Position numbers and translations under genes: made by a program. From a virus: a stretch of DNA of 26,651 nucleotides. Below are positions 10,058 to 22,069 of the stretch, in pieces. The DNA lies in IMG/VR virus record IMGVR_UViG_3300034026_000008, positions 1 to 26,651 of that record; one strand, 5' to 3'. The stretch's first letter is position 1. Every line of letters begins with the position of its first letter. The notes under the pieces are model-generated. The model made no database searches and was not told where the DNA came from. It saw only the letters and a list, made by a program, of their open reading frames with translations.

Positions 10058-10332
10058 GACGTCACCTGTATGACTGAGCAGGGAAGCCCGTCGGCCGCGC
10101 GGACGACGGTGAAGCGCACGGTGCGCCCGGGGGCAACCGCGGCGAGGACGCCGCCCGCCATAATCCCGGCGCCGTCGGTGGCGAGGTCGGGCAGCGCGAC
10201 CGCGCCCGTACCGTCCGTCGGGTCCGAGTCGGTGACGTCGTGAACTTTCACCACTTCGCCCGTGACCGGCCAGTCAATGCCGTCGTGCTCGACTTTCCAC
10301 TCCACGCCTTCGTAGTTGCTAGGCATAAGCAC
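10054..10332 (-). CDS. Small hypothetical tail protein
   Basis: 92 aa with two closely spaced ATG codons (10332 or 10326). It is a beta-rich small domain (VEWKVEHDGIDWPVTGEVVKV) with no family recognised. It overlaps the end of the hub gene by 14 nt and the next gene by ATGA, so it is translated within the tail operon. Its size and position fit a minor tail tip component. Confidence 0.6.
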   Translation of the reverse strand: MLMPSNYEGVEWKVEHDGIDWPVTGEVVKVHDVTDSDPTDGTGAVALPDLATDGAGIMAGGVLAAVAPGRTVRFTVVRAADGLPCSVIQVTS

Positions 10333-12601
10333 TCTCTTCCAGTCTGGCGACCACGCGGCCCCCGACGAGCGCCAGCGACTGGAAGCCGATGGGCTCGGGC
10401 TGTTCCCCGCGGCGCCCGCCGGGGTTAGACGCGGGCGCGGAGACGTAAATGGGCGGCGGCTGCTCCACGTCCTCGATGCGCGCCATGAAGTCCTGCGGGT
10501 AGAGCTGCGCCGTGATCTCGACCTTCAGGTCTCCCCTGCGGACCATCTTCATCACTCGGAAGTACTCGTAAGACTGTCCCGCGAACCACGGGAACGAGCC
10601 GGCGCGCGCCGGCGACGTGTAGTAGTCGAGGATCTCCTCCTGGAGCACGGAGTTGATGACGCGGATGGGCTTGTACATGCGCACCGCCAGCGCCTCTGAG
10701 TACCAGGTTGTGAACTTCACCCACCAGGGGTTGGCGAGACCGCCCGCATCGAGCGGCCCGAGGTAGAGCAGGAAGACCCCGAAGCGCGCGGCCTCGGAAT
10801 AGTTGGTGATGCCGAAGGCAGGCTGCGTCTTGCCGTTGATTTTGATTCCCCGACCGCCCGAGGCCCTTTCGGCACGGAGCTGCGCGCGCTGGTCGCCGAA
10901 TATGAGCTGCGTCTCGACGAAGCCGTTCGAGGAGTCGTCGAAGTTCACCGTCCACTGGTTGATGAGGTCGCGGTCGGAGGTGTACCCCCAGGAGAGGGAG
11001 GATTCCGCGCCTTTGCTTGCGATGTTTCGATCGTCACCCTCATCCGTGAAAGTGGGGACGTGCGCGTCGAGCGTCTCCTCGCGGAGCGGCGTGAAGACCT
11101 CGAGCCCCTGGAATTCGTGCGGCAGCCCGATGCGCCCGGCCGTGCAGAGGTCCGTTATCTGCTGCTGCACCTGGCGGCTGTTGAGTTCAACGTTGCAGGA
11201 GGAGCGCGCGCCCGTGAATATGGTGCCGTCGGGCGCGTGCATCGAGACCAGCTCGTCGCCCCACCCGCGGCACTCGACGACGGAGGCGATGTCGTATCGC
11301 GCAGGGTCGTTGCCGTATCCCCAACGCGGCTTCGTAAGGGCCGCGAAGATGGCGTCGATTCTCTTCGTGCTGTACTGCTCCGTGTAAACGCCCGGCTCCG
11401 TGTAAACCCTCAGGTCGCGCAAGCCCCGGCACATGATCGAAGCCGTGAGTGAAGCCGCCTGGTTCTCGTTGAAGTTGCCCTGGATGCGGCCGAAGCAGTG
11501 GGCCGTGCCCGAAAACGAGTTGATGCCGGGGGAGAAGAAGGTCGGCACCTGACCGAGTTCGCCCAGGCGGAGGTTCTGGTGCTCGGCGCCGACGTAGACG
11601 TCGTTCATCCGGAAGTTCCAGAGCCCGGCGACCGGCCCCTCGCCCACCTCGAATAGCCCCGCGCCGAAACCTTTGTCGGGCGTTTTCGTGTTTACCTCGT
11701 TGCGGTAGGCCAGAAGCGGCATGGCCTTGACCAGGCGCTCGCCGATGATGACGCGGATGGGGTCCGCGAGCTTCGAGGCGTTGCCGACAGCGGAGGCCGG
11801 GATGTTGCGCCCGCCGACGAAATTGTTGATGGGATCGGGGCGCACCTCGTAGCCGGGCCAGAACCTCGTCGTCTGTGCGTCGCTGTCTGGCAGCGTCATT
11901 CGCGCGAAGCAGTCGCCCACCGTCGCGCGGGCGCAGTCGGTGAATCCGGGGACGCCTATCTTCAGCGCGCCGGCGCGCTCCTCATCCGAAAGGTGCGCGT
12001 TGTGCGGGCAGCCGGCGTGGAAGTCGATCTCCTCCTGCGTGCTCAGCAGTGCGCCGAAGATGAAGAGGCAGCTCGTCGCGTGCCAGCGGTGCGGCACGTT
12101 CATGTTCGGCGAGCGGAAGCCGGTCGAGGCGTCGAGCACGACGCGCGCGCGGCTCATCTCCTTGGGGGCCTTTGTCGTACCCCGCCACAGGGAGAGGAGC
12201 AGGTCTACGGCCGGCCAGTATGCGAAGACCTCGACGGGCACGCCCTCGCCGTGCGTTGCGACGAGGCGGCCGATCTCGCGGTCGAGGTTGCTGAAGGTGA
12301 AGTCGGCGCCGTCCTCGGCTATCGAGGCCGAGCGGGGAAGATCGGCGAAGGGCTTGTTCTTCTCAGGGACGAGCCGGACGACGAGCGGGGCGTCGTAGCC
12401 GAGTTCCGCGAGGAGCTGCGGCATGAGGAGCGCGTACTGGGGGTATACGTTGGGGTCGTCAAAGGCGGCGACCGCGTAGACCTTGAGGCCGTCCGGCGCC
12501 GGCCAGTAGTAGGCCGTCACCTCGGCGGGCTTCCGCTCTTCCGCCGGAAGGAGCCGCAGCGCGGCGAGTTTGGCCTTTATCTCTTCGGTGTATTCGCTCA
12601 T
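10319..12601 (-). CDS. Large tail tip/baseplate hub protein with Cys-rich motif
   Basis: 760 aa from the ATG at 12601; a GTG one codon upstream is also possible. AGGTG precedes the start. It is positioned one gene after the tape measure/distal tail pair, as expected for a hub. A central motif holds C179, C199-P-H-N, C224 and C232 in the context GFTDCARATVGDCFARM. From memory this resembles the cysteine motif of lambda gpL and related hub proteins, which bind an iron-sulphur cluster. The N-terminal part is mixed alpha/beta and the C-terminal half is beta-rich. It may combine functions that are separate proteins in lambda. Exact domain limits cannot be given. Confidence 0.65.
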   Translation of the reverse strand: MSEYTEEIKAKLAALRLLPAEERKPAEVTAYYWPAPDGLKVYAVAAFDDPNVYPQYALLMPQLLAELGYDAPLVVRLVPEKNKPFADLPRSASIAEDGADFTFSNLDREIGRLVATHGEGVPVEVFAYWPAVDLLLSLWRGTTKAPKEMSRARVVLDASTGFRSPNMNVPHRWHATSCLFIFGALLSTQEEIDFHAGCPHNAHLSDEERAGALKIGVPGFTDCARATVGDCFARMTLPDSDAQTTRFWPGYEVRPDPINNFVGGRNIPASAVGNASKLADPIRVIIGERLVKAMPLLAYRNEVNTKTPDKGFGAGLFEVGEGPVAGLWNFRMNDVYVGAEHQNLRLGELGQVPTFFSPGINSFSGTAHCFGRIQGNFNENQAASLTASIMCRGLRDLRVYTEPGVYTEQYSTKRIDAIFAALTKPRWGYGNDPARYDIASVVECRGWGDELVSMHAPDGTIFTGARSSCNVELNSRQVQQQITDLCTAGRIGLPHEFQGLEVFTPLREETLDAHVPTFTDEGDDRNIASKGAESSLSWGYTSDRDLINQWTVNFDDSSNGFVETQLIFGDQRAQLRAERASGGRGIKINGKTQPAFGITNYSEAARFGVFLLYLGPLDAGGLANPWWVKFTTWYSEALAVRMYKPIRVINSVLQEEILDYYTSPARAGSFPWFAGQSYEYFRVMKMVRRGDLKVEITAQLYPQDFMARIEDVEQPPPIYVSAPASNPGGRRGEQPEPIGFQSLALVGGRVVARLEESAYA

Positions 12602-12606
12602 CACCT

Positions 12607-12620: not shown

Positions 12621-13082
12621 TCAGATTGTCGAGGGGTTCTCGACGCCCTCGTCGAGCGCTCCGCCTTCGAGCGTATTCATGTGGCGCACGTACGCCTGCC
12701 GGAGCGACAGTCCCGTCGTGCCGAGGTAGAGGTCGACCAGCTCAATAGAGAGGGAGTCGTCCGCGAATTTCCAGAGGTAGAGTTTCTTGTCGAGTGGGGA
12801 GCGCATGACGAAGGGCCGCCGGGCGTTATCCATATGGCGGCGGTAGAAGCCCCAGATGTACTCGAGCCTGCTGACGGGTTCACCCGACCAGGGTTGGACC
12901 ATCACGTCCCGGTCGAGCCACGGGTAGCTGAGCTTGGCCGTGAGGAGGCCCGGGAAGACCTTCTCACTCTCCTCGAGGCCGCCGCCGTAGTCGATGCCGA
13001 GGAACGAGCCGGAGTAGTCGATCCCCACCTCGCAGCGGAAGTGGCCTCTGAAGACCAATCGTTCGTATTCAAGAGCGCTCAT
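12621..13082 (-). CDS. Distal-tail-type minor tail protein
   Basis: 153 aa from the ATG at 13082. An open frame from a TTG at 13169 runs through two hairpins and is not credible as the start. The protein is beta-rich, with the segment RPFVMRSPLDKKLYLWKFADD, which recalls small minor tail proteins placed between tape measure and hub (lambda gpM-like role). Family identity is not proven. No good ribosome binding site lies directly upstream: a GAGGA is in the loop of leader hairpin B, 23 nt from the ATG. It is the first gene after the promoter at 13227-13254 and its two-hairpin leader. Confidence 0.6.
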   Translation of the reverse strand: MSALEYERLVFRGHFRCEVGIDYSGSFLGIDYGGGLEESEKVFPGLLTAKLSYPWLDRDVMVQPWSGEPVSRLEYIWGFYRRHMDNARRPFVMRSPLDKKLYLWKFADDSLSIELVDLYLGTTGLSLRQAYVRHMNTLEGGALDEGVENPSTI

Positions 13083-13086
13083 AAGC

Positions 13087-13135
13087 AAAATGCCGCCGGT
13101 AAGAATCCTCAAAGGGTTCACCGGCGGTACTGGTT
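13087..13135 (-). terminator. Leader hairpin B, terminator-like, AACCAGT family
   Basis: On the minus strand: AACCAGTA, stem CCGCCGGT paired with ACCGGCGG (8 bp), a loop containing TTTGAGGA, then CATTTT. It lies 5 bp before the tail gene ATG at 13082. It shares flanks and stem layout with hairpins A and C. Confidence 0.7.
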
Positions 13136-13143
13136 GAGAAATG

Positions 13144-13193
13144 AAAATGCCCGCGGTGAAAGCCTCCAAAGAGACTCACCGCGGGCACTGGTT
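13144..13193 (-). terminator. Leader hairpin A, terminator-like, AACCAGT family
   Basis: On the minus strand: AACCAGT, an 11-bp perfect stem (GCCCGCGGTGA with TCACCGCGGGC, plus-strand arms 13149-13159 and 13176-13186), a 16-nt loop with TTTGGAGG, then ATTTTCATTT. It is spaced 58 bp from hairpin B. The structure looks like an intrinsic terminator placed before, not after, the tail genes. Confidence 0.75.
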
Positions 13194-13226: not shown

Positions 13227-13254
13227 ATTATAGCAGCTTCGGTTTATCTATCAA
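13227..13254 (-). promoter_or_regulatory. Strong leftward promoter for distal tail genes
   Basis: On the minus strand TTGATA (13249-13254), a 16-nt spacer and a perfect TATAAT (13227-13232). The expected transcript passes through hairpins A and B before the ATG at 13082, giving a leader of about 140 nt. The remaining part of this gene-free stretch (13255-13393) shows no further structure I can support. Confidence 0.75.
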
Positions 13255-13393: not shown

Positions 13394-13642
13394 CTACCTC
13401 TTACCGCCCTTCTTATCTGGCGTCCTCACTAGAATTTCGTTCGGCTCGCAATCTAACACGCTACACAAGCGGTCTAAGGTCTTAAGACCTATCATCTCAA
13501 ACTCACCCTTCCACAACCGCGAAGCCATACCGGGATTGATGTCCATCGCCTTCTGAAGCTGGTAGGCGGTCTGGATGCCCCGCGCCTGCGCCACCTGTTG
13601 AATCCGCACTTTAATCATGCCGTCAGTATACGTCTGTAGCAT
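13394..13642 (-). CDS. Cro/CI-type (XRE) HTH repressor
   Basis: Small HTH protein of 82 aa from the ATG at 13642, or 74 aa from the ATG at 13618, where the family-like start MIKVRIQQVAQARGI begins. The fold (QLQKAMDINPGMASRLWKGEFEMIGLKTLDRLCSVLDCEPNEIL) is the classic Cro/C1-type XRE domain. It stands alone without a peptidase or oligomerisation domain, so it is more Cro-like or like a short repressor. Its -10 box ends 6 nt before the ATG at 13642, which suggests a leaderless transcript from that start. Three TTCAG-type repeats lie in the divergent promoter region and probably form its operators. It faces the accessory cassette that begins at 13758. Confidence 0.85.
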   Translation of the reverse strand: MLQTYTDGMIKVRIQQVAQARGIQTAYQLQKAMDINPGMASRLWKGEFEMIGLKTLDRLCSVLDCEPNEILVRTPDKKGGKR

Positions 13643-13648
13643 GGCCCC

Positions 13649-13677
13649 ATTCTACTTCAGAAATTACTTTCAGTAAA
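13649..13677 (-). promoter_or_regulatory. Leftward promoter of the XRE gene
   Basis: On the minus strand TTTACT (13672-13677), a 17-nt spacer and TAGAAT (13649-13654). Two TTCAG words (13656-13660 and 13669-13673) lie within or beside the spacer, which fits autoregulation. The -10 lies 6 nt from the ATG at 13642. Confidence 0.65.
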
Positions 13678-13717
13678 GGTATTTTCTTATTTACAAGTGT
13701 TTTCATTTCAGGTAATA
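13654..13717. promoter_or_regulatory. Three TTCAG-type putative operators of the switch
   Basis: The direct-repeat words are ACTTCAGAAAT (13654-13664), CTTTCAGTAAA (13667-13677) and ATTTCAGGTAA (13705-13715). The first two lie in the leftward XRE promoter and the third lies between the -35 and -10 of the rightward promoter. TCATTTCAG also recurs in reverse at 875-883. Confidence 0.5.
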
Positions 13718-13718
13718 T
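13690..13718 (+). promoter_or_regulatory. Rightward promoter of the accessory cassette
   Basis: TTTACA (13690-13695), a 17-nt spacer and TAATAT (13713-13718). It drives the 20-aa peptide at 13758 and the following small genes, divergently from the XRE gene, as in a lambda-type switch. Confidence 0.65.
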
Positions 13719-13757
13719 ATTTCCAGATTCGATAACACGACGAAAGGCGAACGCCAC

Positions 13758-13820
13758 ATGACCGACGAAGAGAGACAGGAGCTAAACCGACGCATGGCCG
13801 AGTGGTTCGGCATCGGCTAA
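13758..13820 (+). CDS. 20-residue peptide, leader or gene remnant
   Basis: A 21-codon frame encodes MTDEERQELNRRMAEWFGIG and stops. The sequence resembles the usual N-terminus of small phage proteins that begin with ELNRRIAEWLGW-type residues, so it may be a truncated relic. It may also serve as a coupling leader: its stop codon merges with GGAGGG, the ribosome binding site of the next gene at 13837. It is the first open frame after the rightward promoter. Confidence 0.45.
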   Translation: MTDEERQELNRRMAEWFGIG

Positions 13821-13836
13821 GGAGGGTCAAGAAACC

Positions 13837-14121
13837 ATGTTCAAAAGGCAAGTCAACGCCTGCGCTATCTCGCAATACCGCGCCGGGGATGAAGTCCTCT
13901 TCAAGTATGAAGGGCTCCTAGTCGGCACGGTCAAATGTGTCAGGTTCAGCGGCGGGAAGGTGCGCTACGAACTGACGCTCAGCCTTGAATGCGAAGTGCC
14001 CGAGTCGGAAGTTTTATCCGGCGGGGTGCAACAGATTTGCGGCGGGGTGCAAAGCCTTCACGACGCCCTGCCGCAATCCGGCGGACTGCCGCAAATAGAC
14101 GGCGGGGCGGCTGAAATTTAA
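13837..14121 (+). CDS. Small beta-barrel-like protein, paralogue 1
   Basis: 94 aa. The core YRAGDEVLFKYEGLLVGTVKCV aligns with FRPGEDVVFKFSGNLSGLVRDV of the gene at 14259. In both, a stretch of about 45 residues ends in a C/F-E-V-P/S-E-x-x-V-L pattern. The G-D-E-V-x-F-K and G-x-V-x-x-V pattern suggests an SH3-like small barrel, but no named family is recognised. The Gly-rich C-terminal tail (GGVQQICGGVQ) is encoded by short DNA repeats (GGCGGGGTGCAA twice). Ribosome binding site GGAGGG. It is expressed from the rightward promoter of the switch. Confidence 0.65.
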   Translation: MFKRQVNACAISQYRAGDEVLFKYEGLLVGTVKCVRFSGGKVRYELTLSLECEVPESEVLSGGVQQICGGVQSLHDALPQSGGLPQIDGGAAEI

Positions 14122-14191
14122 CGCATTGGCACGACGCGGGAGGGGGTTTACAGTGTGCGCCTCTTGCCCGCGTGAGGCCGCCTCGAAGCGA

Positions 14192-14222
14192 GCGCGGGGG
14201 ACGCGCCAAACGTCCCCCGCGC
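14192..14222 (+). terminator. Strong hairpin between the paralogues
   Basis: A perfect 12-bp stem GCGCGGGGGACG with CGTCCCCCGCGC and loop CGCCAAA. No U-run follows, so it may act as an RNA processing or pausing element rather than a true terminator. The rest of the 14122-14258 gap shows no gene. Confidence 0.6.
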
Positions 14223-14258
14223 CCATCCAGCACGCGACGACCAGAAGGGGGTCGCCAC

Positions 14259-14528
14259 ATGCCTGCAAGGGATAGTAAGCCGCCCGTCAGAGGCGGCACA
14301 ACTCGCCCCATCCCGACATTCAGACCGGGCGAAGACGTTGTTTTCAAGTTCAGCGGCAACCTCTCGGGGCTAGTCCGCGACGTGAAGGTTGAAGGCGAGC
14401 GCGTCACCTATCTGATTTACGCGACGTACGCCTTTGAAGTGTCCGAGGATTCCGTCCTGTGCCGCACGGCCGAAGCCGAGCGGGTTTTGGGCGGGGCCGT
14501 CGTCAAGGACAAGGGGAAAAGGTGGTAG
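14259..14528 (+). CDS. Small beta-barrel-like protein, paralogue 2
   Basis: 89 aa from the ATG at 14259 with AGAAGGGGG upstream; a longer frame from 14172 would run through the hairpin and is less likely. The core FRPGEDVVFKFSGNLSGLVRDV is related to the protein at 13837, so the pair arose by duplication or by separate capture of one family. The N-terminus is a basic, Pro-rich extension and the C-terminus is Lys-rich. Function unknown; the repeated small-barrel design suggests a nucleic-acid- or protein-binding accessory factor. Confidence 0.65.
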   Translation: MPARDSKPPVRGGTTRPIPTFRPGEDVVFKFSGNLSGLVRDVKVEGERVTYLIYATYAFEVSEDSVLCRTAEAERVLGGAVVKDKGKRW

Positions 14529-14639
14529 CCGCGTCTGCTAGGGCGTCGCGGCTGCGGGGCCGGGCGGTGTCCGTTGGGGTGACGCCGCCCGCGCATAGCG
14601 GAAGGGGGCGCTGTGGGCATCATGCTCAGCGACTAAACC

Positions 14640-14816
14640 ATGATGGGACTCGCGGAACTTCATGCCGCCGGGGAGCGGCACAGGGAGCAACTGAAGAATC
14701 CGTATCGCCCGAGGCCGGAGCGTTGGAACATGGGCGCGGCGATTCGTCGCATACTGGGGAGAATGCGGCGGTCGAGGGCAACCCGGAGGCGTGCGCCTTC
14801 GGTCGCGCAGCACTAA
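14640..14816 (+). CDS. Small basic hypothetical protein
   Basis: 58 aa, frame from two adjacent ATG codons at 14640. The sequence (LAELHAAGERHREQLKNP, then NMGAAIRRILGRMRR) has a plausible amphipathic helix and a very basic tail. No strong ribosome binding site is seen, and a 4-codon frame (14622-14636) ends just before it and may couple translation. A terminator-like hairpin follows at 14837. No family is recognised. Confidence 0.4.
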   Translation: MMGLAELHAAGERHREQLKNPYRPRPERWNMGAAIRRILGRMRRSRATRRRAPSVAQH

Positions 14817-14836
14817 CGCTTTTCAATCGGGCGTGT

Positions 14837-14871
14837 GAAGGGGTCGGGCGTGTCGGGCGTCCGGCCCCTTC
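14837..14871 (+). terminator. Terminator-like hairpin before the HNH genes
   Basis: GAAGGGG (14837-14843) pairs with CCCCTTC (14865-14871), extended inward by CGG/CCG. It is followed by GTGTCTTT, a weak U-rich tail. It separates the small-protein group from the HNH genes. Confidence 0.5.
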
Positions 14872-14881
14872 GTGTCTTTGG

Positions 14882-14901
14882 GGGTCATAACGTTATGACC
14901 C
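14882..14901. promoter_or_regulatory. Dispersed palindrome, copy extended to 20 bp
   Basis: GGGTCATAACGTTATGACCC is a perfect 20-bp palindrome that contains the core ATAACGTTAT (14887-14896). The HNH start codon (ATG at 14895) is part of the right arm, so a bound protein would block translation initiation DNA and any nearby promoter. Confidence 0.75.
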
Positions 14902-15188
14902 GCCTATCAACCGAGCAAAGAATACGGCTGAGGGTTCAGAGACGACGCCGGGCCTCCGACGCGAACGCGGCGCGGCGCGCGCGCCTCTACACTGAACAGG
15001 TTGAACAGGTGAGCCGTGATGAGATTGCCGAGAGAGATAGCCACCTGTGCCACATCTGCGGGGAGTGGGTTTCCGTGCATGAGATGAGTCTAGACCATGT
15101 AGTCCCGTTGATTCGCGGCGGGACTCACACGAAGGACAATATTAAGTTGGCTCACAAGGTATGCAATTCTAGGAAGGGGGCGCGGTGA
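14895..15188 (+). CDS. HNH endonuclease 1
   Basis: 97 aa from the ATG in the palindrome. An Arg-rich N-terminus precedes a compact HNH domain with zinc cysteines C52-x2-C55, the catalytic LDH (H68), the loop PLIRGG and the closing DNIKLAHKVCNSRKG (C90, N91). The missing second C of the usual C-x2-C at the end is replaced by S. HNH enzymes of this size act in phage DNA packaging, homing or restriction. Here it lies far from the terminase, in an accessory cassette, and overlaps the next HNH gene by GTGA, so a homing or accessory role is more likely. Confidence 0.85.
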   Translation: MTRLSTEQRIRLRVQRRRRASDANAARRARLYTEQVEQVSRDEIAERDSHLCHICGEWVSVHEMSLDHVVPLIRGGTHTKDNIKLAHKVCNSRKGAR

Positions 15189-15940
15189 CGCTTAAGACCT
15201 GTAAAGAGTGCGCGCGGGCCTTACCCCTATCTGACTTCTACAAGAAGCAAAGAGGGAAGTACGGCGTTGATGCCCTGTGTAAGTCATGCAGACTCGCCCG
15301 GCAGAATACCCGCCTGCTAGACCCCGAAGTGCGCGAGCGCAAAAGAGAGAGCAATAGAAGGTTAGCGCAAACCCCTGCAAGGAAAGCTAGCATGCGCGAG
15401 CATCACCGCCGCTATAGGGAACAGAATCGGCAAGAAATTAAAGAAAGGGCGCGCGCGTGGCGCAAGTCTCATCCCGAGAAAATAAGGACTTACACGGTGA
15501 AGTATCGCCATAAGAATTACGAGGCGACGCGCAAACGCGAACAGAAGCAATACGAGAGGCGGATGCAGGAAAACCCCGATAGCGTTCGCATGTGGGGCCG
15601 TCTCGCGGCCCAACGGCGGAAGGCCCGACGCCTCGCCGCGCAGGGCGTCTGCACTAAAGAACAGTTCATGGCTAAGTGTGAATACTTCGGTTGGCGCTGC
15701 TACCTGTGCGGCATTAAATTAAACACTACGTCGGTTCAGATGGAACACCGTAAGCCACTTTCGCGGGGAGGCGCTAATTGGCCCGCCAACCTAGCACCCG
15801 CCTGCGCCGGGTGCAACTATTCAAAGGGCACTAAGACGGAGGCGGAGTTTCGCGTTTGGCTGGTTGAACATTGCGGCGGTAGAATTTCCGCCCATGAGAA
15901 ACAAGGTCATTTTGACGCTCAGCCTGCTACTGGCCTTTAG
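15185..15940 (+). CDS. HNH endonuclease 2 with N-terminal zinc ribbon
   Basis: 251 aa, GTG start overlapping the stop of HNH 1. The N-terminal zinc ribbon (C6-x2-C9, C32-x2-C35) is typical of phage-borne HNH proteins. A long, very basic helical region (about 45-150, many Arg/Lys/Glu) probably binds DNA. The C-terminal HNH domain has C172-x2-C175, the catalytic MEH (H188), LSRGG, N202 and C207-x2-C210-N211. The domain is complete, so activity is plausible. Tandem HNH genes of different architecture suggest a freestanding homing pair or a repeated insertion site. Confidence 0.87.
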   Translation: MTLKTCKECARALPLSDFYKKQRGKYGVDALCKSCRLARQNTRLLDPEVRERKRESNRRLAQTPARKASMREHHRRYREQNRQEIKERARAWRKSHPEKIRTYTVKYRHKNYEATRKREQKQYERRMQENPDSVRMWGRLAAQRRKARRLAAQGVCTKEQFMAKCEYFGWRCYLCGIKLNTTSVQMEHRKPLSRGGANWPANLAPACAGCNYSKGTKTEAEFRVWLVEHCGGRISAHEKQGHFDAQPATGL

Positions 15941-16148
15941 CGTCTTCGCGCAAACACAGACATCAACCAAGTCCCCTGTCGAAACAAAGGCGCGGACGTG
16001 GGAATACAACACGGTAGTAACGTCGCTCCAAACCGCGAATAAAGATTTGGGTAAGTTGGGCGGGGAGGGGTGGGAGCTTGTGTCTACAAATGAAACGACA
16101 ATATCAGGCAGCACTTACTATGTTGTATTCTTAAAACGGCCGAAGTAG
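15894..16148 (+). CDS. Exported DUF4177-like protein
   Basis: 84 aa from the ATG at 15894, overlapping the end of HNH 2 by 47 nt in another frame. A clean signal peptide (MRNKVILTLSLLLAFSVFAQ) is followed by a short domain with TWEYNTV, LGGEGWELVSTN and YYVVFLKRP, the typical layout of the DUF4177 family. Its biochemical role is unknown. It ends 14 bp from the convergent tape measure gene with no terminator between. An exported cellular-type protein in a phage tail region looks like a cargo (moron) gene. Confidence 0.75.
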   Translation: MRNKVILTLSLLLAFSVFAQTQTSTKSPVETKARTWEYNTVVTSLQTANKDLGKLGGEGWELVSTNETTISGSTYYVVFLKRPK

Positions 16149-20513: not shown

Positions 20514-20903
20514 CTACTTGCGTTTGACCCTCACCCTCTGCGGCTTGAAAGGCCCGGAGTCGCCCGCAGCCGGTGGGGGGCTCTGAGTCGACCGGAACCT
20601 CGCGCCGCAGGCGGCGCAGCGCGTGCCGCCGCCCTCCGCCTTCTCGCGGTCGGCTGCCTCATGCCTGCACCACATCATCGCGGCGATCATCTGCGCCGTC
20701 GCCCGTGCCAGCTCCCACCGCTCCTCTGAGAGCGCCCGCGCCTGCTGCCTCTCCCGCTCCAGCAGGCGCGAGGCGCATGACAGGTTGAAGTTCAGCCGGC
20801 GCGGGTCGCTTTTGAGGAGGAGCAGGTAGGGGTCACGCCCGAACCTTTCGGCGGCGACGCTCAGCAGTAGATGCTCGTCTCTCCTTTCGGTTACGAAACG
20901 ACT
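20514..20903 (-). CDS. Frameshift-accessed extension of the tail assembly chaperone
   Basis: A 129-codon open frame on the minus strand, from after a TGA at 20904-20906 to TAG at 20514-20516, with no usable start codon. It overlaps the end of the chaperone gene by about 70 nt in the +1 (equivalently -2) frame. The translation is protein-like: RRDEHLLLSVAAERFGRDPY, then NLSCASRLLERERQQ, EERWELARATAQMIAAMM and a possible zinc site (WC, then RCAACG). This is the arrangement of lambda gpG/gpGT, where ribosomal frameshifting gives a long form that contacts the tape measure. Candidate slip sites are TTT-CGT (+1) and GAG-AGA (-2, where AGA can re-pair with AGA two bases back). The fused product would be about 280 aa. 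Confidence 0.7.
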   Translation of the reverse strand, partial: SRFVTERRDEHLLLSVAAERFGRDPYLLLLKSDPRRLNFNLSCASRLLERERQQARALSEERWELARATAQMIAAMMWCRHEAADREKAEGGGTRCAACGARFRSTQSPPPAAGDSGPFKPQRVRVKRK

Positions 20904-21366
20904 TCAGGCCGTCTTTGGCCTCACCTCCCGTGATCACCCCGAACAGCTCAGTGAAGTCTTCCGGGTGCACGCGCGCGACCGGACGTCTCTCCCCGTTGAG
21001 GAAGGCGACTCGCCCCGTCTCGTCATAGCCGAGGGGCGGCTCCAGCACGTTCTCGACGACCGTCTGGCGCATGAAGACGGCGATTGCCGCGCCCTCCCCG
21101 ACGTCCTCCCTCGTCGGCTCGGGGATCTCTCCCTCATCTGCCTTCCCCGTCGGCCCATCGCCACCTAAGGCGTCCTGCGAAGCCTGCACGAGCGACATCG
21201 GCACGGCGCCGACGAGGATGAGGGCCTGCATGTCCACGCGGCGGACGCGCACGACGGCACCGGTCTTCTTCAGCTGGTGGAGGAAGCCCTTGTCCTCGGT
21301 TTGGCGGGCGGCCTCGGCCTTTTGCGCGTACTCCTCGGCGCTTGTGACTTTCAGTTCTGCTTTCAT
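20833..21366 (-). CDS. Tail assembly chaperone (short form)
   Basis: 177 aa from the ATG at 21366, with GAGGAG upstream. The longer frame that starts at 21423 passes through hairpin C and is rejected. Features: KVTSAEEYAQKAEAARQ at the N-terminus, a VDMQALILVGAVPMSLV segment, a variable acidic linker, an EDFTELFGVITGGEAKDGL part and a very basic end. Position between tail tube and tape measure, plus the overlapping frameshift frame, identify it as the gpG-type chaperone. It is separated from the tail tube gene by terminator-like hairpin C, which may lower its expression relative to the tube. Confidence 0.75.
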   Translation of the reverse strand: MKAELKVTSAEEYAQKAEAARQTEDKGFLHQLKKTGAVVRVRRVDMQALILVGAVPMSLVQASQDALGGDGPTGKADEGEIPEPTREDVGEGAAIAVFMRQTVVENVLEPPLGYDETGRVAFLNGERRPVARVHPEDFTELFGVITGGEAKDGLKSFRNRKERRASTAERRRRKVRA

Positions 21367-21377
21367 GACGCTCCTCG

Positions 21378-21428
21378 AAAAAATTGCCGCCGGTCGAAGG
21401 CCACGGGGCCACGCCGGCGGCACTGGTT
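21378..21428 (-). terminator. Hairpin C, terminator-like, AACCAGT family
   Basis: On the minus strand: AACCAGT, stem GCCGCCGG paired with CCGGCGGC (plus-strand arms 21386-21393 and 21414-21421), then AATTTTTT. It follows the tail tube gene and lies directly upstream of the chaperone ribosome binding site. It has the same flank and design as hairpins A and B 8 kb away. Confidence 0.8.
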
Positions 21429-21454
21429 GTAAGTGTGTGTGCGGCCTTCCGGTC

Positions 21455-22069
21455 CTACGGCGCTACCTCTTCGTAGCGGATGAAGGCGAACGTGCGGTCG
21501 CCGGCCGTGCGGGTCGACACGGCGCGCCCCGAGAGGCTGACGGGTACGGCGCTGCCTCTGGTGCGCCCGACGGCCAGCTCTAGGCCGGCGGTGTTCACGC
21601 ACTTGTAGAGGACGAACCCCCAGTAGACGCCCGGCTCCTGGTGGTCCTCCCAGATGAGCATGGCCGTCATGTAGTTGAACGAGCGCTTGCCGCCGCCCGT
21701 GATCTTCTCGACGCCGCCGGCCGCGGCGTGGTGGACGGCACCGGGCGTGAGCCTGGCGAGGCGCGCCAGGTTCTTCACCTGCCGGATGGCGCCCGCCAGA
21801 GTCACCTCGTTCGTGTTGATGTAGTCCTCGACGGGGTCTTCCTCCTCGTCGACCCGGTCGCCCTCGATCGCCGGCTTCGCCGAGGCCGTCCACCCTTCGG
21901 ACGTGTAGCCCACGGACTCGGCGTCGGGGTTCGCCGTGCCGTCGGGCGTGCCCGTGTCGAAGTCGATCGTCGGGACCGAGTCGAGCGCGACGGCCGACAG
22001 CCCGATGAAGAGTTCGCCGGGCGCGCGGTTCAGCTCCTGCGCGTCCCAACCGTGAGCAAGTCCTGCCAT
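21455..22069 (-). CDS. Major tail tube protein
   Basis: 204 aa. The pattern of a tail tube is visible: a GELFIGLSAVALDSVPTIDFD N-terminal part, ESVGYTSEGWTASAKP (the G-x-T-x-E-G turn), NEVTLAGAIRQVKN, a central loop, then a beta-rich C-terminus (YWGFVLYKCVNTAGLELAVGRT). The GGAGGA ribosome binding site is 5 nt from the ATG, the best of the region, and the product would be needed in many copies. It is followed by terminator-like hairpin C, as is common after tail tube genes. Confidence 0.78.
   Translation of the reverse strand: MAGLAHGWDAQELNRAPGELFIGLSAVALDSVPTIDFDTGTPDGTANPDAESVGYTSEGWTASAKPAIEGDRVDEEEDPVEDYINTNEVTLAGAIRQVKNLARLARLTPGAVHHAAAGGVEKITGGGKRSFNYMTAMLIWEDHQEPGVYWGFVLYKCVNTAGLELAVGRTRGSAVPVSLSGRAVSTRTAGDRTFAFIRYEEVAP

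Follow-up and report, generated by a model that had tools for sequence, protein, structure and literature searches.

The window analysed here, a 26.65-kb IMG/VR virus record that is a fragment of a tailed phage genome, carries three hairpins (A, B and C) that are, on sequence evidence, copies of one conserved cis-acting RNA located before the first gene of a block of tail genes. The element is previously uncatalogued, occurs in a group of uncultured phages, and is probably a leader or intercistronic RNA that tunes the amount of tail proteins made. As to how it might do so, control of transcription by regulated attenuation or antitermination ranks first, with a probability of roughly 0.4. How a single operon can yield abundant major tail protein in tailed phages and yet only a little tape measure and tip protein is for the most part unexplained, and a conserved RNA at that boundary, found again where the operon splits, offers a testable handle on tail stoichiometry. 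The family can be sought in viromes.

Hairpins A, B and C in the window

The minus strand carries the head and tail genes of the window, and the features that matter here are the following.

10319-12604: tail-tip protein J gene, the query that led to the relatives
12621-13082, minus strand: distal tail gene of 153 aa, with its ATG at 13082, behind hairpins A and B
13086-13136, minus strand: hairpin A, anatomy as B, ending about 10 nt upstream of the distal tail start codon
13139-13194, minus strand: hairpin B, with AACCAGT flank, 11-14 bp stem, 3′ UU bulge, apical hairpin and U-rich tail
13227-13254, minus strand: predicted sigma-70-type promoter TTGATA-N16-TATAAT with an extended -10 (TGCTATAAT), reading into B and A
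13394-16148, no strand assigned: inserted cassette that separates the tape measure and distal tail genes
13394-13642, minus strand: HTH gene in the cassette
14835-15940, plus strand: two HNH endonuclease genes in the cassette, adjacent with a small overlap
15864-16148, plus strand: DUF4177-like gene in the cassette
20833-21366, minus strand: tail assembly chaperone-type gene, behind hairpin C, with weak phrog_6280 and DUF7391 matches
21373-21429, minus strand: hairpin C, the same element, at the junction of the major tail protein-type and chaperone-type genes
21455-22069, minus strand: major tail protein-type gene, with a weak phrog_2175 match and an Ig domain, in front of C

The original prediction of three AACCAGT-flanked hairpins on the minus strand is borne out. 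The word AACCAGTNCC occurs three times in the window, always on that strand (13193, 13135 and 21428), against a mean of 0.10 in shuffled windows, none of 100 of which reached three, and the minus strand folds strongly at B (-33.9 kcal/mol, z -7.4), A (-19.7 kcal/mol, z -3.4) and C (-29.6 kcal/mol, z -4.0). Pairing is kept in all three, as had been proposed, but the stems are not perfect, each being broken on its 3′ side by a bulge or internal loop of 1-2 nt. The stems of A and B lie about 20 nt apart, a tandem arrangement found in the window contig only. The near-consensus promoter that had been placed ahead of them is also there (13254-13227), matching 11 of 12 consensus positions in addition to the extended -10 and scoring best of five in the scanned region, and hairpin C has no recognisable promoter adjoining it. 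What had been read as the first tail gene behind A and B is actually a distal one, which most relatives have right behind the tape measure gene. The chaperone-type assignment of the gene behind C also draws on its place between the major tail protein and tape measure genes.

Relatives and the covariance-model test

Neither the 153-aa protein nor the major tail protein found any relatives when searched as a single sequence, and alignments were needed. Tail-tip protein J, used as a query, brought up contigs L027-L030, L034 and L035 with identities of 50-54%, an alignment search with the major tail protein brought up L038 and L040, and a pattern scan L127. Eight of these contigs (L028, L029, L030, L034, L035, L038, L040 and L127), whose major tail proteins are about 49-56% identical to that of the window, have the orthologous element between the same two genes as C, so that with the window its position between the major tail protein and chaperone genes is fixed in nine contigs; the site is missing in L027 because that contig begins within the tape measure gene. 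The junction consensus runs roughly CAACCN-GUGCCGYCGGCG, a variable apical hairpin, UUWGCUUGGCGGCAC and a U-rich stretch, followed by a ribosome-binding site. The sample is a small one of metagenomic fragments, with nine junctions and two second sites, and no tRNA that might hint at a host was found. Across it, the element is always in gene orientation, has a hairpin of 35-46 nt, is single in 10 of its 11 places of occurrence, and is present in at most three copies per contig, before tail blocks only.

A covariance model built from the elements of seven relative contigs with the window left out (R1), run on the window with filters off, ranks C first (24.4 bits, E 1e-5), A second (20.5 bits, E 2e-4) and B third (14.1 bits, E 0.033); a second model, R2, gives B an E of 2e-5, and all these E-values are rough by the tool's own statement. 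Elsewhere, across about 1.1 Mb of other loci chosen in part by pattern, the best unrelated score was 19 bits, and in two bacterial genomes likewise chosen by pattern R2 scores as high as 26 bits about once in each. By score alone the evidence for B is weak, and we accept it as a member because it adjoins A and shares a 10-mer with C. Among eight related records, R1 found one clear extra copy, in L030. The original prediction was staked on a covariance search finding copies beyond this genome, and copies in other contigs, with covariation among them, are what was found.

Pattern scans added little to this set. Among 80 loci from the matches listed for a relatives-derived pattern, the clear members were L127 and L128, the latter being the L029 contig. 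A degenerate pattern (flank plus GGCAWTTTT) gave 17 matches in viral contigs, none convincing as a family member. Three scattered matches in genome contigs scored near chance, and thus no host or prophage copy was found there. In MW202444, whose major tail protein is the nearest among GenBank phages (34% identity), only 5 bp separate its gene from the next, leaving no room for the element.

Constraint on the stem

In the eight junction elements, window excluded, all 120 of 120 pair cells are paired and five pairs have changed on both sides; none of 500 shuffles was as good in pairing or in covariation score, and every slid control of the alignment fell to 35-53% paired. Adding hairpins C and A and the second L030 copy gives 98.7% paired and six pairs changed on both sides, in an enlarged alignment that was fitted to the model and hence leans towards it. 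Selection on structure in a single family, as originally proposed, is thereby supported by covariation and by the copies in other contigs. In each element a lower stem of 8-11 bp leads through a bulge of 1-2 nt on its 3′ side, which the second L030 copy lacks, to a short middle stem; a UU-type internal loop, again on the 3′ side, then separates this stem from an apical hairpin of 3-7 bp whose loop is free. Within the eight elements, all four apical pairs have changed on both sides and 8 of 11 lower pairs never vary; mean identity is 94% and 92% in the lower arms vs 46-58% in the flanks. This pattern of covariation and arm identity indicates that the apical part is kept for pairing only and the lower part also for sequence. 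Between contigs, the adjacent major tail gene has the same base at only 14-47% of its fourfold third positions, which puts its synonymous sites close to saturation.

The apical loops (GAGA, GAAA, GUA, AAAAA, CACAAA, CCGU, UUUG) bear on an earlier suggestion that GAGG words in the loops might control translation. Such words lie in the apical parts of A and B and are no conserved feature in relatives, and the idea does not hold up against a loop that is free to vary.

A second site behind an inserted cassette

The distal tail gene (encoding a homolog of the 153-aa protein) comes immediately after the tape measure gene in L028, L029, L034 and L035, and R1 found no second copy in these contigs. 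In L030 a cassette parts the two genes, and there R1 found its second copy (L030:8566-8627, E 8e-11), with TTTGCTATAATCCGC directly upstream of it and the distal tail gene after it. The order in the window matches, with cassette, promoter, hairpins B and A, and distal tail gene, and the two promoters, together with one in contig L021, have TGCTATAATCCGC in common. An HTH gene lies upstream of the promoter in both cassettes, and the two also share a DUF4177-like gene beside the tape measure end (31% identity, E 2e-5), suggesting that they may descend from one insertion; beyond these genes they show no likeness. The DUF4177-like genes are antisense to the tail operon (window 15864-16148, plus strand; L030 5395-5616, minus strand). 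In L027 the insert at this place is small, and the tail gene has neither the element nor a promoter in front of it; judging from the two contigs that have the element there, it goes with a new promoter rather than with any interruption.

Because copies adjoin a cassette in two contigs, one might take the element for a DNA-level feature, such as a site of recombination, packaging or cassette insertion, or for a chance repeat. We consider this highly improbable: the copies are always in gene orientation and on one side of the cassette only, they are also found at the chaperone junction where there is no cassette, and the apical stem shows the covariation of an RNA.

How the element might act

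In the reading we favor, the element would set or license how strongly the low-copy tail block (chaperone, tape measure and tail tip) is expressed compared with the abundant major tail protein, and the half of the operon split off by a cassette would therefore need a copy of its own. Less surely, it may act while the RNA is being made, its hairpin and U-rich tract together resembling a terminator or pause signal whose outcome depends on recognition of the lower stem and bulge, be it by a host factor, a phage factor or RNA polymerase itself. A more specific version, that the element represents a new class of nascent-RNA antitermination or attenuation signal of phage tail operons, with a bulged and sequence-specific lower stem and re-deployed with a new promoter at a cassette break, we consider unlikely as a whole. 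No trans-acting factor for the element was found, and seven related records searched for a NusG paralog yielded none; 10 of 14 controls had PF02357, which was absent from these possibly incomplete records.

Downstream of each copy comes a U-rich tract (at least 4 T in 8), raising the question of whether these GC-rich hairpins are simply leaky intrinsic terminators that lower expression past the major tail protein gene, their sequence likeness reflecting common descent. Terminators at structural-gene junctions are usual in phages, as in the annotation of phage Seuss after the capsid gene, and are present in the late clusters of SPP1 (PMC6316719). By a d'Aubenton-Carafa type score, hairpins B and C, both L030 copies and L038 pass, with a good U-tract at the base of the stem, and since B and C are terminator-grade by this simple score, ordinary attenuation is possible. 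The other 7 of 12 copies fail, several of them badly because the U run stands 2-5 nt off the stem (L028, L029, L034, L040), and the U-tract is displaced or weak in A. That terminator quality is not conserved suggests that the element is more than a plain terminator. Moreover, a terminator does not need a fixed stem sequence, yet the lower stem hardly varies between contigs whose synonymous sites are close to saturated, and tandem copies right behind a strong promoter would make little sense. We therefore regard plain termination as quite unlikely.

The closest competitor to transcriptional control, ranked second and not very likely, is a translational operator, in which a tail protein or host RNA-binding protein would sit on the hairpin beside the ribosome-binding site of the block's first gene. 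MS2 coat protein controls translation in this way, by binding a hairpin at the replicase start. The base of the stem lies 18-24 nt before the start codon in 10 of 11 places, with a purine-rich, SD-like stretch between element and start in those ten, and this spacing and the U-rich and SD stretch fit an operator as well as they fit the transcription model; a bulged, sequence-specific lower stem is likewise what such a protein could read. At hairpin A, however, only about 10 nt and no SD precede the start codon, and an operator would reach the first gene only, unless translation were coupled. Sequestration of the SD by the element was considered and rejected: ribosome-binding sites are unpaired or weakly paired in the folds, so that simple masking of SD and start is not seen.

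Still less likely than termination is an mRNA processing or stability element, either an RNase III site or a protector of 5′ or 3′ ends, acting between the major tail message and the tail block and stabilising leaders. Stems that are long and GC-rich, placed at a cistron junction and at the start of a new transcript, would suit this role, as would the presence in the window of other intercistronic hairpins lacking U-tracts before head genes, but it gives no reason for the sequence to be conserved in the lower stem alone.

Comparison with known RNA systems

The element has no match among the Rfam 15 covariance models, in agreement with the original prediction that it belongs to no recognised family. 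A resemblance to HK022 put RNA had also been proposed. The putL and putR RNAs are about 70 nt with two adjacent stem-loops, are located in early operons, and bind the zinc-binding domain of the RNA polymerase beta′ subunit (PMC9378689). Like put, the element is a bulged phage cis-acting hairpin RNA that can lie close behind a promoter and before an operon; unlike put, it is a single hairpin of 35-46 nt in tail operons and mostly away from promoters. With neither the ~70-nt double stem-loop nor the early-promoter location present here, put offers no more than an analogy, and that for the arrangement behind the promoter. Intrinsic terminators at phage structural-gene junctions share with the element a stable GC-rich hairpin and a U-rich tract after an abundant structural gene, and differ in that the element conserves the sequence of its lower stem and bulges and not its terminator strength. 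In the dfn and mln operons, the elongation factor LoaP recognises a small leader hairpin and overrides leader terminators (PMC12691694). That hairpin is of the UNCG type, whereas the element's apical loops are variable and do not conform to UNCG; nor do the seven records hold a NusG paralog, although a host factor could serve. The ESAS of cluster K mycobacteriophages are inverted repeats with a variable spacer before translation starts, several per genome, with no function assigned (PMC3203893). They accompany the 13-bp SAS and many genes, unlike the element with its tail-block restriction, low copy number and different sequence, and a search for ESAS-type 17-bp inverted repeats next to GGGATAGGAGCCC found this 13-mer beside none of the twelve copies whose flanks were covered. 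No description of such an element was found in the literature searched, a weak negative given that few subscription papers were covered.

A similar layout with an unrelated hairpin

Contig L021 has a capsid 89% identical to that of the window but a sheath-type tail, and the pair records an exchange of head and tail modules, sheath-type vs siphovirus-type. At L021:19248-19370, TGCTATAATCCGCGC, the same 15 nt as in the window promoter, is followed by a perfect 18-bp hairpin directly before a tape measure-type start. This hairpin is unrelated to the element, and its presence in the same layout suggests that lower-stem sequence may not matter everywhere. A near-copy of it lies at L021 18597-18643, and a cassette before the tape measure-type gene contains a C-terminal TnpB/Cas12f-like remnant (L021:17083-17328, minus strand). 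On the minus strand of the window, intercistronic hairpins of 15 bp (26209-26172) and 9 bp (25685-25659) without U-tracts precede head genes, and the one ahead of the major capsid gene is partly kept in L021.
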